A DNA stretch of 36,991 nt from Blautia sp. AF19-10LB (GTDB taxonomy: Bacteria > Bacillota > Clostridia > Lachnospirales > Lachnospiraceae). Numbering within the stretch: the first letter of the stretch is position 1; every line of letters begins with the position of its first letter. Location: assembly GCF_003461245.1 (NCBI RefSeq), contig NZ_QTWS01000035.1:1-36991 (forward strand). Direction: 5' to 3'. The position numbers and the translations under genes are program-made. Below the pieces are notes generated by a model. It saw only the letters and a program-made list of their open reading frames with translations. It searched no databases and was not told where the DNA came from. Below are positions 25,060-28,142 of this stretch, one piece after another.

Positions 25060-25722
25060 TCAGGCTTTTCTTTTGTCTAATTTTCTGGAAAGCATCATGC
25101 CAAGTCCCTGAAGAATCTGTACAAGAACGACAAGGATCACGATCGTAACCAGCATGATGTCTGTCTGATAACGATAATATCCATAACGGATCGCGATATC
25201 ACCGAGACCGCCACCGCCGACAGTTCCTGCCATAGCAGAATATCCGAGGATCGTTCCGACTGCAATGGTAACTCCTACGAGGAGGGAAGTTCTTGCCTCT
25301 GCGAGAAGGACTTTCCAGATGATCGTTCCTGTTCCTGCGCCCATGCTGACTGCTGCCTCGATCACACCCGGCTCAACTTCTTTGAGGGAAGATTCTACCA
25401 TACGTGCAATGAACGGTGCTGCAGCGATCACCAGCGGAACGATCGTTGCGCTGGAACCGTAACTCTGACCCACGATCAGCTTGGTGAGCGGGATCACCAG
25501 GATCAGAAGGATCAGGAACGGAATACTTCTGAGGATGTTTACGATCACATCCAGAACTTTATATAATGGTGCATTTGGACGGATACCTTCTTTGTCTGTA
25601 ACTGCAAGCAGGATTCCAAGAGGGAGCCCCAGAACATATCCGAAAAATGTGGAGACAAGCGTCATGTATAACGTATCTCTTGTGCCTTCCAGCAGCATCG
25701 TAATTGTTGCATTATCCCACAT
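25060..25722 (-). CDS. metI: Methionine ABC transporter permease
   Basis: Membrane subunit of the MetNIQ methionine importer, 220 residues. Five hydrophobic segments are visible. MetI features: LEGTRDTLYMTLVSTFFGYV, LGLPLGILLAV, VNILRSIPFLILLILVIPLT, and VIEAAVSMGAGTGTIIWKVL, the EAA coupling loop with the conserved Gly. GYSAMAGTVGGGGLGDIAIR follows and is nearly diagnostic for MetI. The gene overlaps the end of metN by 11 nt, and its ribosome site (GAGGAGG) lies inside metN. It is the last gene of the operon. Confidence 0.95.
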   Translation of the reverse strand: MWDNATITMLLEGTRDTLYMTLVSTFFGYVLGLPLGILLAVTDKEGIRPNAPLYKVLDVIVNILRSIPFLILLILVIPLTKLIVGQSYGSSATIVPLVIAAAPFIARMVESSLKEVEPGVIEAAVSMGAGTGTIIWKVLLAEARTSLLVGVTIAVGTILGYSAMAGTVGGGGLGDIAIRYGYYRYQTDIMLVTIVILVVLVQILQGLGMMLSRKLDKRKA

Positions 25723-26722
25723 CTGAGCTCACCTCCTCTACGCCCATATTGATATCTCTGAGATACTGGATCATCTTATTCGCCACTTCCTCGATCTCGG
25801 GAAGCTGCAGGATCATCTCTCCCTGTGCCTGTCCATTAATGTTCTTGGTATCAGCATACAGAATGTTGACCGGTGTCCGGTAAGTAAGGACCAGGTTTGC
25901 AATCACCGGCTCGAAGGAAGATTTCTCCTGGAACGTTACACGTACCAGACGTTTGCCCTTCATTTCCTGGATCTGGGTCCTTCCGCTGAATACCAGCTTT
26001 TTGGCTTCATCTGTCTTTGGATTGCGGAAAAGTTCTTCCACAGTTCCGATTTCTACGAGAGCTCCTCGTTCCAGAACTGCTACCTTGTCGCAGATCTCCT
26101 GTACGACACTCATTTCATGTGTGATGACAACTACAGTGATCCCATAATCCCTGTTGATCTCTTTGATCAGTTCCAGGATCGCCTTGGTCGTCTGCGGGTC
26201 CAGTGCACTGGTCGCCTCGTCACAGAGAAGGATCTGCGGATCACTTGCCAGCACTCTCGCGATCGCAACTCTCTGCTTCTGTCCACCGGAAAGCTGTGAT
26301 GGATAAGAAAGTGCTTTCTCCTCAAGTCCTACGATCTTGAGATATTCCAGAGCTTTCTTACGTGCCTCTGCCTTCTTAATCCCGGCGATCTCCATTGGAA
26401 AACAGACGTTATCCAGTGCTGTTCTCTGCATGAGCAGATTGAAATGCTGGAAGATCATTCCTATCTTCTGACGCTCTTTACGAAGCTCTTTTTCTGAGAG
26501 CTCCGTAAGATTTTTGCCATTGACTCTGACTGTTCCTGATGTTGGTCTTTCCAAAAGGTTCAGACATCGTACCAGAGTACTCTTGCCTGCACCGGAGAGA
26601 CCGATGATGCCGAAGATCTCTCCTTTTTCGATGGAAAAACTGATGTTTTTGGCTGCCTCTACCGTTCCACCTTTGGTGTTGAAACGCTTGCAGAGGTTCT
26701 CTACCTGTATCATCGGTTCCAT
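25712..26722 (-). CDS. metN: Methionine ABC transporter ATP-binding protein
   Basis: ATPase of the MetNIQ importer, 336 residues. It has Walker A (GLSGAGKST), Q-loop (MIFQHFNLL), signature LSGGQKQRVAIARVLASDPQ, Walker B (ILLCDEATSALDPQT) and switch TVVVITHEMSV. The C-terminal NIL/ACT-like regulatory domain (about 260-336: RLVRVTFQEKSSFEPVIANL, PEIEEVANKMIQYLRD) is present. In MetN this domain binds methionine and inhibits transport (trans-inhibition). Import is therefore probably controlled both by this feedback and by the leader described upstream. It lies between metQ and metI. Confidence 0.95.
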   Translation of the reverse strand: MEPMIQVENLCKRFNTKGGTVEAAKNISFSIEKGEIFGIIGLSGAGKSTLVRCLNLLERPTSGTVRVNGKNLTELSEKELRKERQKIGMIFQHFNLLMQRTALDNVCFPMEIAGIKKAEARKKALEYLKIVGLEEKALSYPSQLSGGQKQRVAIARVLASDPQILLCDEATSALDPQTTKAILELIKEINRDYGITVVVITHEMSVVQEICDKVAVLERGALVEIGTVEELFRNPKTDEAKKLVFSGRTQIQEMKGKRLVRVTFQEKSSFEPVIANLVLTYRTPVNILYADTKNINGQAQGEMILQLPEIEEVANKMIQYLRDINMGVEEVSSDVG

Positions 26723-26767: not shown

Positions 26768-27694
26768 TTATTCTGCTTCTTCAGCTGCTGCTTCTGTTGT
26801 TTCAGCGTCTGCATCTGCAGTTTCATCTTTAGCTTCGTCTGCTGCTTCTTCTGTGTCATCTGCAGAATCTTCGAATGGAACAACTGCTCCGTCGTATTTC
26901 TCGTTGATGAAGTCTTTGATCTCGTCAGATTTCAGAGTATCTACCAGAGCTTTGATCGCTTCGCTGTCTTCGTTTCCTTCTTTGACTGCGATTACGTTTA
27001 CATAAGTTTTTGCTGCTTCAGAATCAGAAGTTTCGTGTGCGATGGAATCGTTGGATACGGAATATCCGGCCTGCAGTGCGTAGTTACCATTTAATACAAC
27101 GAATGCAACTTCATCTTTGACACGGGAAACCTGTGCAGCTTCCAGCTCTTCGATCTTGATGTTCTTCGGGTTTTCTTCGATATCTTTGACAGTTGCCTCA
27201 AGTCCTGCTCCGTCTTTCAGAGTGATCACTCCATTGTCCTGGAGAAGAAGAAGTGCTCTTGCTTCGTTTGTTGTATCGTTCGGAACTGCGATGGTGTCGC
27301 CGTCTTCCAGATCATCAAGAGTTTCTTTTGTTCCTGGATAGATTCCGAATGGCTCGTAGTGGATTCCGCCGGCATTTACAAGGTGTGTTCCCTGCTCTTC
27401 GTTGAAGTTATCAAGATATGGGATATGCTGGAAGTAGTTTGCATCGAAATCTCCGCTCTCTACTACAAGGTTTGGCTGTACATAGTCATCAAATACGGTA
27501 ACTTCCAGATCCCATCCCTCTGCCTCAAGGAGCGGTTTTGCTTCTTCAAGGATCTCTGCGTGTGGTGTTGCGGAAGCTGCTACTTTGATGGTTCCTTTCT
27601 CTGCGTCAGCGCTTACGATCACGCCGTTTGCTGTGAGTGCTCCGATTGCCAGTGCTGCTGTAAGTGATAATGTGATGATCTTTTTTGCTTTCAT
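26768..27694 (-). CDS. metQ: Methionine-binding protein (NlpA/MetQ family) without lipobox
   Basis: Substrate-binding protein of the methionine importer, 308 residues. Family landmarks: TIKVAASATPHAEILEEAKP, VTVFDDYVQPNLVVESGDFD, ANYFQHIPYLDNFN, GIYPGTKETLDDLEDGDTIA and VPNDTTNEARALLLLQDNGV. Two things are unusual. The signal sequence (ITLSLTAALAIGALTANGVI, VSADA) has no lipobox and the whole protein lacks cysteine, although MetQ proteins of Gram-positive bacteria are normally lipoproteins. The last roughly 35 residues are an acidic Ala/Glu/Asp/Thr tail not needed for the fold. GAGAGGGAAAGAACT precedes the start. Its transcript carries the Met-rich leader peptide and terminator. Confidence 0.92.
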   Translation of the reverse strand: MKAKKIITLSLTAALAIGALTANGVIVSADAEKGTIKVAASATPHAEILEEAKPLLEAEGWDLEVTVFDDYVQPNLVVESGDFDANYFQHIPYLDNFNEEQGTHLVNAGGIHYEPFGIYPGTKETLDDLEDGDTIAVPNDTTNEARALLLLQDNGVITLKDGAGLEATVKDIEENPKNIKIEELEAAQVSRVKDEVAFVVLNGNYALQAGYSVSNDSIAHETSDSEAAKTYVNVIAVKEGNEDSEAIKALVDTLKSDEIKDFINEKYDGAVVPFEDSADDTEEAADEAKDETADADAETTEAAAEEAE

Positions 27695-27808: not shown

Positions 27809-27846
27809 TAAAAAAATAACAGGAAGTCCTCTGGATCCTCCCTGTT
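27809..27846 (-). terminator. Attenuator terminator between leader ORF and metQ
   Basis: On the minus strand AACAGGGAG (27846-27838) pairs with CTTCCTGTT (27826-27818), nine pairs with one G-U, and is followed by ATTTTTTTA. It stands about 115 nt before metQ and 58 nt after the leader ORF stop. Full read-through is required for metQNI expression from the leader promoter. Confidence 0.8.
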
Positions 27847-27934
27847 CATGCAATCTGTCCGGCATTAAAAAATGCTTTATTTACATCTCGGTATCTGTCA
27901 TCTCTTATACGTGGTCGGCAGATATCTCAGGAAG
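27838..27934 (-). promoter_or_regulatory. Predicted antiterminator overlapping leader ORF and terminator
   Basis: In RNA sense, CTTCCTG (27934-27928, leader codons 37-39) can pair with CAGGGAG (27844-27838), which is the terminator's 5' arm. Directly inside, ATCTGCCG (27923-27916, codons 40-43) can pair with CGGACAGAT (27861-27853) with one bulged A. The two helices are mutually exclusive with the terminator. A ribosome that reaches the leader stop would cover the upstream strand; one stalled at the Met codons would leave it free. Pairing was done by eye. Confidence 0.65.
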
Positions 27935-28042
27935 TGTCCGATACATAGAAGTACAGCAAAACATAGACATGCACATGTCCATACACATCTCCTGATCCAT
28001 CATACACATGACTTCTCTCTGAACTGCATTTCCTGTAAACAT
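27905..28042 (-). CDS. Methionine/cysteine-rich leader peptide of metQNI
   Basis: A 45-codon ORF too short to be found by usual gene callers. It begins with ATG at 28042 after a perfect AAGGAGG seven nt upstream, and ends with TAA at 27905. Ten of 45 residues are Met and five are Cys. Codons 12-27 read MCMMDQEMCMDMCMSM, eight Met in 16 codons, followed by F-C-C. It lies under a consensus promoter and directly ahead of an intrinsic terminator and metQ. By analogy with trp, his and leu leaders, its translation is probably the sensor: scarcity of Met-tRNA stalls ribosomes in the Met block, allowing the antiterminator. Cys codons may add sensitivity to sulfur starvation. The peptide itself need not have a function. 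Confidence 0.8.
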   Translation of the reverse strand: MFTGNAVQREVMCMMDQEMCMDMCMSMFCCTSMYRTLPEISADHV

Positions 28043-28092
28043 GATTCTTCCTCCTTTTTACTTATTGATAAATTTCTTCCGGAAAATGTATT

Positions 28093-28111
28093 ACCTATTT
28101 CTCCGATAGGT
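28093..28111. promoter_or_regulatory. Inverted repeat at the metQNI transcription start
   Basis: ACCTAT (28093-28098) and ATAGGT (28106-28111) with a 7-nt spacer, immediately downstream of the -10, where a repressor site would lie. The shape resembles Rrf2-family (CymR-like) operators, but no regulator is nearby. Confidence 0.4.
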
Positions 28112-28113
28112 TG

Positions 28114-28142
28114 AATATAACATGTCTCATTCACAATGTCAA
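28114..28142 (-). promoter_or_regulatory. Promoter of the leader-metQNI transcript
   Basis: TTGACA (28142-28137) and TATATT (28119-28114) on the minus strand with a 17-nt spacer. The predicted start is near 28107, about 65 nt before the leader ORF. Confidence 0.85.

Follow-up and report, generated by a model that had tools for sequence, protein, structure and literature searches.

In Proteobacteria, the trp, his, leu and thr operons are preceded by leader peptides, in which stalling of the ribosome at cognate codons selects an antiterminator over a terminator. Several related systems have been described in other bacteria. In the Firmicutes, the leader-peptide attenuators encountered in the literature are for histidine; such leaders have been assigned to hisS and hisZ in bacilli (PMC2965389) and to the his operon in the B. 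cereus group, some Eubacteriales and Erysipelotrichales (PMC9413887). Leaders for Trp, Cys and Leu have been described in Actinobacteria, where no conserved RNA structures were reported before methionine operons (PMC1262725), and a candidate Cys attenuator, uORFC-8-2, has been placed before cysS in Rhodobacterales (PMC8632094). The methionine genes of Firmicutes are described as being mostly under the control of SAM-I riboswitches, together with Met T-boxes in Lactobacillaceae (PMC4239095), and a uORF motif before fthC in Streptococcus has been speculated to respond to methionine through the initiator tRNA and the speed of initiation (PMC11109978). A literature search, with subscription papers outside its scope, returned no paper on a methionine leader peptide.

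The window, by which is meant the whole stretch of 36,991 nucleotides analysed from Blautia sp. AF19-10LB, harbors on its minus strand a metQNI operon, whose 5' leader is very probably a ribosome-mediated transcription attenuator, as judged from sequence comparison and a folding model. The signal sensed would be the charging of methionine tRNA and probably also that of cysteine tRNA, because Cys codons recur together with Met codons. The operon is composed of metQ (26768-27694), encoding a methionine-binding lipoprotein of the NlpA family (PF03180), metN (25712-26722), encoding an ATPase with a C-terminal NIL domain (PF00005, PF09383), and metI (25060-25722), encoding the permease (PF00528). 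Upstream of metQ, the preliminary description had listed a consensus promoter, the sequence AAGGAGG and a 45-codon ORF with 10 Met and 5 Cys, eight of the Met falling within codons 12-27, and all of these were confirmed on the minus strand. The putative sigma-70-type promoter (28114-28142) reads TTGACA-17-TATATT with a TG before the -10 element and was assigned by consensus match (11 of 12); promoter-like sites are no commoner in the stretch than in its shuffles, so the call depends on this match and on its location. The Shine-Dalgarno sequence AAGGAGG lies at 28050-28056, and the leader ORF extends over 27905-28042, so that, as in ribosome-mediated attenuators, a short ORF with a ribosome-binding site stands between the promoter and the first gene. 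Its Met codons are numbers 1, 12, 14, 15, 19, 21, 23, 25, 27 and 33 and its Cys codons numbers 13, 20, 24, 29 and 30, which yields a cluster cognate to the regulated pathway in codons 12-30 (27953-28009), the predicted stall region.

Among the ORFs of 12-90 aa in the window, this leader is the richest in Met and Cys, with 9 of 12 residues as opposed to 5 of 12 in the runner-up. Twenty homologous small proteins were found in a large protein database; when these are aligned, identity amounts to 95% in the Met/Cys columns, the start Met being included, and to 85% in the others. When relatives of the window were sought by DNA in 299 genomes, 30 gave matches, the best with 73% identity in mnmA, and none over the leader. 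One homologue, P0002 (78 aa), continues past the position of the window stop at 27905 and through the terminator region, where two stop codons are apparently missing on comparison by eye.

The intrinsic terminator claimed before metQ was recovered at 27846-27810 as a hairpin (27846-27818), which alone has a folding energy of -12.0 kcal/mol and is followed by AUUUUUUU, with the U run at 27817-27810. It is absent from the output of a pattern scan of the stretch, and the minimum-energy fold of 27904-27800 contains its upper part only, the lower part being paired elsewhere. The proposal that codons 37-43 could pair with the 5' arm of this terminator and with the sequence upstream of it is borne out by two complementary stretches. 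In predicted antiterminator helix 1, CUUCCUG of codons 37-39 (27928-27934) faces CAGGGAG (27838-27844), which is common to the terminator 5' arm, with -8.3 kcal/mol; in predicted helix 2, AUCUGCCG of codons 40-43 (27916-27923) faces CGGACAGAU (27853-27861) with -8.4 kcal/mol. Folded to minimum energy, the segment 27940-27810 adopts the antiterminator form. The stability of the whole leader RNA is ordinary (z -0.8), and the RNA signal in the window is one of specific complementarity, not of overall stability.

According to the proposed mechanism, transcription would start near 28107, a position deduced from the promoter, and a ribosome would begin translation of the 45-codon leader. When charged Met-tRNA, and probably also Cys-tRNA, is scarce, the ribosome would stall within the Met/Cys cluster of codons 12-30, and codons 37-43 would be left free for pairing with the sequence at 27861-27853 as well as with the terminator 5' arm (27844-27838). 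The antiterminator so formed would preclude the terminator, and metQNI would be transcribed. When Met and Cys are plentiful, the ribosome would reach the stop codon at 27905 and cover codons 37-43, upon which the terminator at 27846-27810 would stop transcription. The attenuation reading of the leader, first put forward in the preliminary description, is supported by sequence comparison; what we infer is that, in vivo, the leader is translated, ribosomes stall on it and cells respond in this way to methionine or cysteine.

This arrangement shares its stall logic with the trp, his, leu and thr leaders of Proteobacteria, from which it differs in amino acid and taxon, in the mixture of two sulfur amino acids, and in the position of the antiterminator leader strand, which lies just past the cluster and, in the window, within the same ORF. 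The histidine leaders of Firmicutes likewise possess a short leader ORF with cognate codons, a terminator and an antiterminator, but they concern histidine, carry single-codon runs and belong to other families. The element uORFC-8-2 before cysS and the Cys leaders of Actinobacteria resemble the present leaders in having cysteine codons before cysteine-related genes, whereas they involve cysteine only and occur in other phyla; the mycobacterial Cys leaders, unlike those described here, are reported to be without conserved terminator hairpins (PMC1262725). The fthC uORF is also proposed to respond to methionine supply, yet it precedes a folate gene, would act through initiator tRNA and the speed of initiation, and is not known to have a Met codon cluster. 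SAM-I (S-box) riboswitches and Met T-boxes are comparable as RNA-level control of methionine genes in Firmicutes, although neither model matched here and the proposed sensor is the translation of an ORF. The proposed mechanism is classical, and the amino acid, the mixed sensing of Met and Cys and the regulon appear to be new. In principle, methionine is an odd choice for an attenuator, given that initiation on the leader requires it too, and for this very reason such an attenuator would provide a direct test of how the cell separates a shortage of elongator from one of initiator.

Control of the window operon by a SAM riboswitch or a T-box was considered and rejected. A known riboswitch at this place had been named beforehand as evidence against attenuation; the window showed no Rfam match to the covariance models of the SAM-I riboswitch or the T-box. 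At the leaders themselves, scans of the window and of 42 leader-bearing loci gave no match to any Rfam family. The SAM-I riboswitch itself is present in 25 of 29 leader-bearing genomes, one in each except for a genome with two, and 19 of the 20 SAM-I loci read stand at metK (18 by script and L198 by eye), while the last runs off a contig end. The Rfam scans also returned a group II intron domain (RF02001, 125 bits) at 1626-1793 of the window, minus strand, far from the leader, and a Clostridiales-1 RNA (RF01699, 121.6 bits) at L193:1267-1438, between the leader terminator and metN.

By computation, the parts of the attenuator, their recurrence before met and other sulfur genes, a complementarity specific to each locus and the position dependence in a folding model are all observed. 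A Met-rich short ORF with its pairing recurs, for the class as a whole, in related Lachnospiraceae, the comparison that the preliminary description had proposed. A small upstream ORF in which a stretch of 15 residues holds at least six Met was encountered in 6 of 81 sense regions (80 loci upstream of met importer operons and the window, with two, L075 and L077, wrongly delimited), in 0 of 81 antisense regions and in 0 of 395 dinucleotide shuffles. A first search before metQ for Met-rich ORFs had brought out L053 as its one clear leader, since the gene order in many relatives is metN-metI-metQ and the leader there precedes metN. More leaders were found when Met and Cys were counted jointly over the whole upstream stretch. 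With duplicates merged, 35 distinct Met/Cys-rich leaders, the window included, were found upstream of metQ against 2 antisense matches (196 regions, 184 distinct), a number that is a lower bound, as the sequence available upstream of metQ is shorter than 1.6 kb in 39 of the 196 regions and a later search added six leaders; 149 of the 184 distinct regions gave no leader by the Met/Cys filter. The met importer loci are mostly labelled Lachnospiraceae, the leader-bearing L040 is labelled Oscillospiraceae, and named-strain records such as Roseburia inulinivorans DSM 16841 (L070) and Anaerobium acetethylicum GluBS11 (L042) are included among the leaders.

The first HMM (A1) recognised, with E values up to 10, only 18 of the 29 leader-bearing genomes and is thus insensitive; it added four leaders (L227, L229, L233, L234) and two non-leaders (L235, L236). 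When 299 genomes of the family were searched with HMM A4, which was built from 15 metN/metQ-type leaders, 14 of them gave matches with E values of 0.01 or below, at one place each, and all 14 places lie on the same strand within 3 kb upstream of metQ. Six of these matches are outside the training set, one of them (L297) being nearly identical to training row L045, and in all six a Shine-Dalgarno sequence and a terminator are present. The search for Met-type leaders in a phylum-wide sample of 199 returned a single weak match, which lies inside a 317-aa frame and was taken as chance, so the Met-type leader looks confined to this family or its surroundings. In all, 70 small leader ORFs were collected (64 tallied and 6 later), to which the proposed mechanism would give a role.

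The intrinsic terminator between leader ORF and gene that marks ribosome-mediated attenuators is found in the window and in the class, where a hairpin of -8 kcal/mol or lower with a U run occurs within 110 nt after the leader stop in 33 of 35 leaders, against an average of 3.4 (range 0-6) in shuffles. The two that fall short are L157 (-7.4) and L069, in which no terminator was found and which was left out of the pairing and folding-model analyses. The terminator stems start 17-59 nt past the leader stop (four set by hand). Over the remaining 34 loci, the duplex between the region after each Met/Cys cluster and the terminator 5' arm of its own locus has a mean energy of -18.0 kcal/mol, compared with -13.5 kcal/mol for permuted partners (sd 0.54; reached in 0 of 20,000), in permutation statistics that assume independence even among related loci. 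Relative to dinucleotide shuffles, these duplexes have a mean z of -1.9, and that of the window duplex (-17.5 kcal/mol) is also -1.9. Pairing in L043, L090, L105, L187 and L193 is no better than in dinucleotide shuffles, and L040 failed the shuffle test while giving a perfect 10-nt match once anchored on the conserved motif. Across the class, the complementarity between leader and terminator is locus-specific. The mutually exclusive antiterminator expected of such attenuators is represented by the pairing in the class, and in the window by complementarity and the minimum-energy fold rather than by covariation of its own.

In the folding model, the RNA outside the ribosome was folded with the A site placed at each codon, and the terminator probability was read out. 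Over 34 loci, the mean terminator probability was 0.66 with the A site in the cluster and 0.96 at the stop codon; 29 loci went in the expected direction, in which a stall gives less terminator, 14 with a gap above 0.3, and none was clearly reversed. The mean gap between stall and stop was 0.33 against 0.026 in shuffled leader-to-terminator RNA, and the 14 loci with a gap above 0.3 compare with 1.5 on average, and 4 at most, in the shuffles. The window gave a mean of 0.39 in the cluster (lowest 0.11) and 0.88 at the stop; in the comparison with shuffles, its gap was 0.63 against 0.00. The position-dependent structure of an attenuator is thereby seen, within this model, clearly in the window and 13 other loci, and is weak or absent in 20 of 34. 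In those 20, where the gap is 0.3 or less, equilibrium favours the terminator in almost every state, so that any switch would need to be kinetic.

The predicted switch point of the window lies between codons 31 and 32, just after Cys 29-30. The earlier proposal that stalling at Met codons frees the antiterminator holds in the model for the Met/Cys codons 14, 15 and 23-30, at which the terminator probability is about 0.1-0.35, and fails at codons 12, 13, 19, 20 and 21, where, as from codon 32 onward, it is about 0.65-0.9. A stall at Met 12, 19 or 21 or at Cys 13 or 20 would leave the terminator in place, so not every Met codon would count. The preliminary description had further suggested that an untranslated leader, as after failed initiation, would relieve termination; the model lends this no support, since the RNA free of ribosomes has a terminator probability of 0.64 in the window (mean 0.74 over the loci), nearer to termination than to read-through.

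A sister type of leader, of the form MCCCRMLFSRA and here termed CRM, precedes metY, other amino acid transporters and MetQ/MetN. HMM A2, built from twelve leaders of this form, gave matches at E 0.01 in 49 of the 397 genomes of the family that were searched, nine of them training genomes and about four to be expected by chance. In a class sample of 291 genomes, it matched 7 at E 0.001. Downstream of the 64 tallied leaders stand metN (19), metY (15), SBP3-type genes (15), metQ (9) and a permease (2), with 4 not placed. The metY of L238, the one scored against NCBIfam, is above the TIGR01326 cut-off. The binding proteins and the permease matched cystine, arginine and other models below their cut-offs, and as the transporter scores of L237, L241 and L263 are below the curated cut-offs for any substrate, the label 'cystine' is not claimed.

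The make-up of the leaders varies with the gene that follows, the mean numbers of internal Met and of Cys being 7.4 and 3.7 before metN (19 leaders), 4.3 and 2.8 before metQ (9), 1.7 and 2.3 before metY (15), and 2.8 and 3.9 before SBP3-type proteins (15), in a comparison that pools screens with unlike thresholds and in which the count covers the entire peptide if the CRM motif is lacking but stops short of the motif if it is present. These numbers fit a tuning of Met/Cys content to the downstream gene and are a lead rather than a test. A broader reading, to which we give an even chance, is that the leaders read both Met- and Cys-tRNA charging and have, in some of the Lachnospiraceae, replaced the SAM riboswitch at all sulfur amino acid genes except metK, with codons tuned to the gene, being Met-rich before methionine importers and Cys-leaning before metY and SBP3-type transporters. 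If true, it would constitute a regulon-wide attenuator for sulfur amino acids and the first ribosome-mediated attenuator for methionine. The methionine attenuator proposed here would also make the supply of sulfur amino acids in common gut bacteria readable at the level of codons.

The same counts bear on an alternative in which cysteine is mainly sensed and the Met codons are minor, so that a methionine importer would happen to be under the control of an attenuator for cysteine. Of the 64 tallied leaders, 63 contain one or more Cys codons in the counted part, CC or CCC is frequent in the CRM type, Cys codons 29-30 of the window are among the best-placed stall sites in the model, and precedents exist in the Actinobacteria, which have Cys leaders (PMC1262725), and in the Rhodobacterales, where such a leader precedes cysS (PMC8632094). 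This alternative is nevertheless improbable, for Met dominates before metN operons (means of 7.4 Met and 3.7 Cys in 19 leaders, partly a bias of the screen) and the window leader has 9 internal Met against 5 Cys.

The attenuation reading is further supported by the pairing in 38 CRM leaders, which were chosen by motif ([RL]M, one or two residues and S[RQ], after Met/Cys), so that the Met there is present by construction. In 35 of the 38, the codons that follow the cluster find a 10 of 10 nt match, G-U pairs being allowed, in a segment beyond the stop. Linked changes occur on both sides, as in CCCGGG/CCCGGG, CCCAGG/CCTGGG and CCCGGACA/TGTCCGGG, and the last pair varies jointly among A/T, T/A and G/C. 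For 14 distinct segment pairs, 9.8 of 10 pairs form with the own partner and 9.2 with swapped partners, the margin being small because the segment is so conserved; the longer duplexes average -32.1 with the own partner against -29.4 when permuted (0 of 20,000).

The residues after the CRM cluster are highly conserved as R-M-x-x-S-R/Q, and of the six possible codons for the Arg that precedes the antiterminator strand, CGA is used in 36 of the 37 leaders with Arg there. This codon may be a slow one, or it may serve in RNA pairing with the terminator 3' arm and the U run, a pairing visible in L144, L156 and L164. TnaC and ErmCL are arrest peptides that sense their own ligands in the ribosome tunnel, and both features would be in keeping with a nascent chain of this kind that senses free methionine, cysteine or SAM, in which Met and Cys would form an arrest motif instead of starvation codons. 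Such arrest is a decidedly unlikely explanation: the class peptides align poorly (mean column identity 23%) and have Met/Cys content as their common trait, and the conserved CRM residues are largely those encoded by the antiterminator strand, so that RNA pairing explains most of the conservation, though not the CGA. Scarcely credible, finally, is a functional Met/Cys-rich small protein (e.g., metal-binding) with no role in control. Public data do list homologues of the leader as proteins, and copper can be bound by peptides rich in Met and Cys, but the place before met genes, the terminator after the ORF and the locus-specific pairing with it would be unexpected, and no match was given by Pfam at cut-off for the window leader or by NCBIfam for the five leaders tested.

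Some of the SBP3-type amino acid binding proteins behind the leaders are fused to MetQ. At L241:1745-3112, a single frame behind a CRM leader encodes an SBP3-type binding domain followed by a MetQ/NlpA domain, and other loci with frames of about 560 aa resemble it; the interpretation of these frames as a fused metI-metQ was dropped in view of the domain order in L241. In L255 and L234, the CRM leader before metY adjoins a gene for an Rrf2-like regulator, and in L234 a cysK-like gene adjoins it as well, these names having been given by eye.
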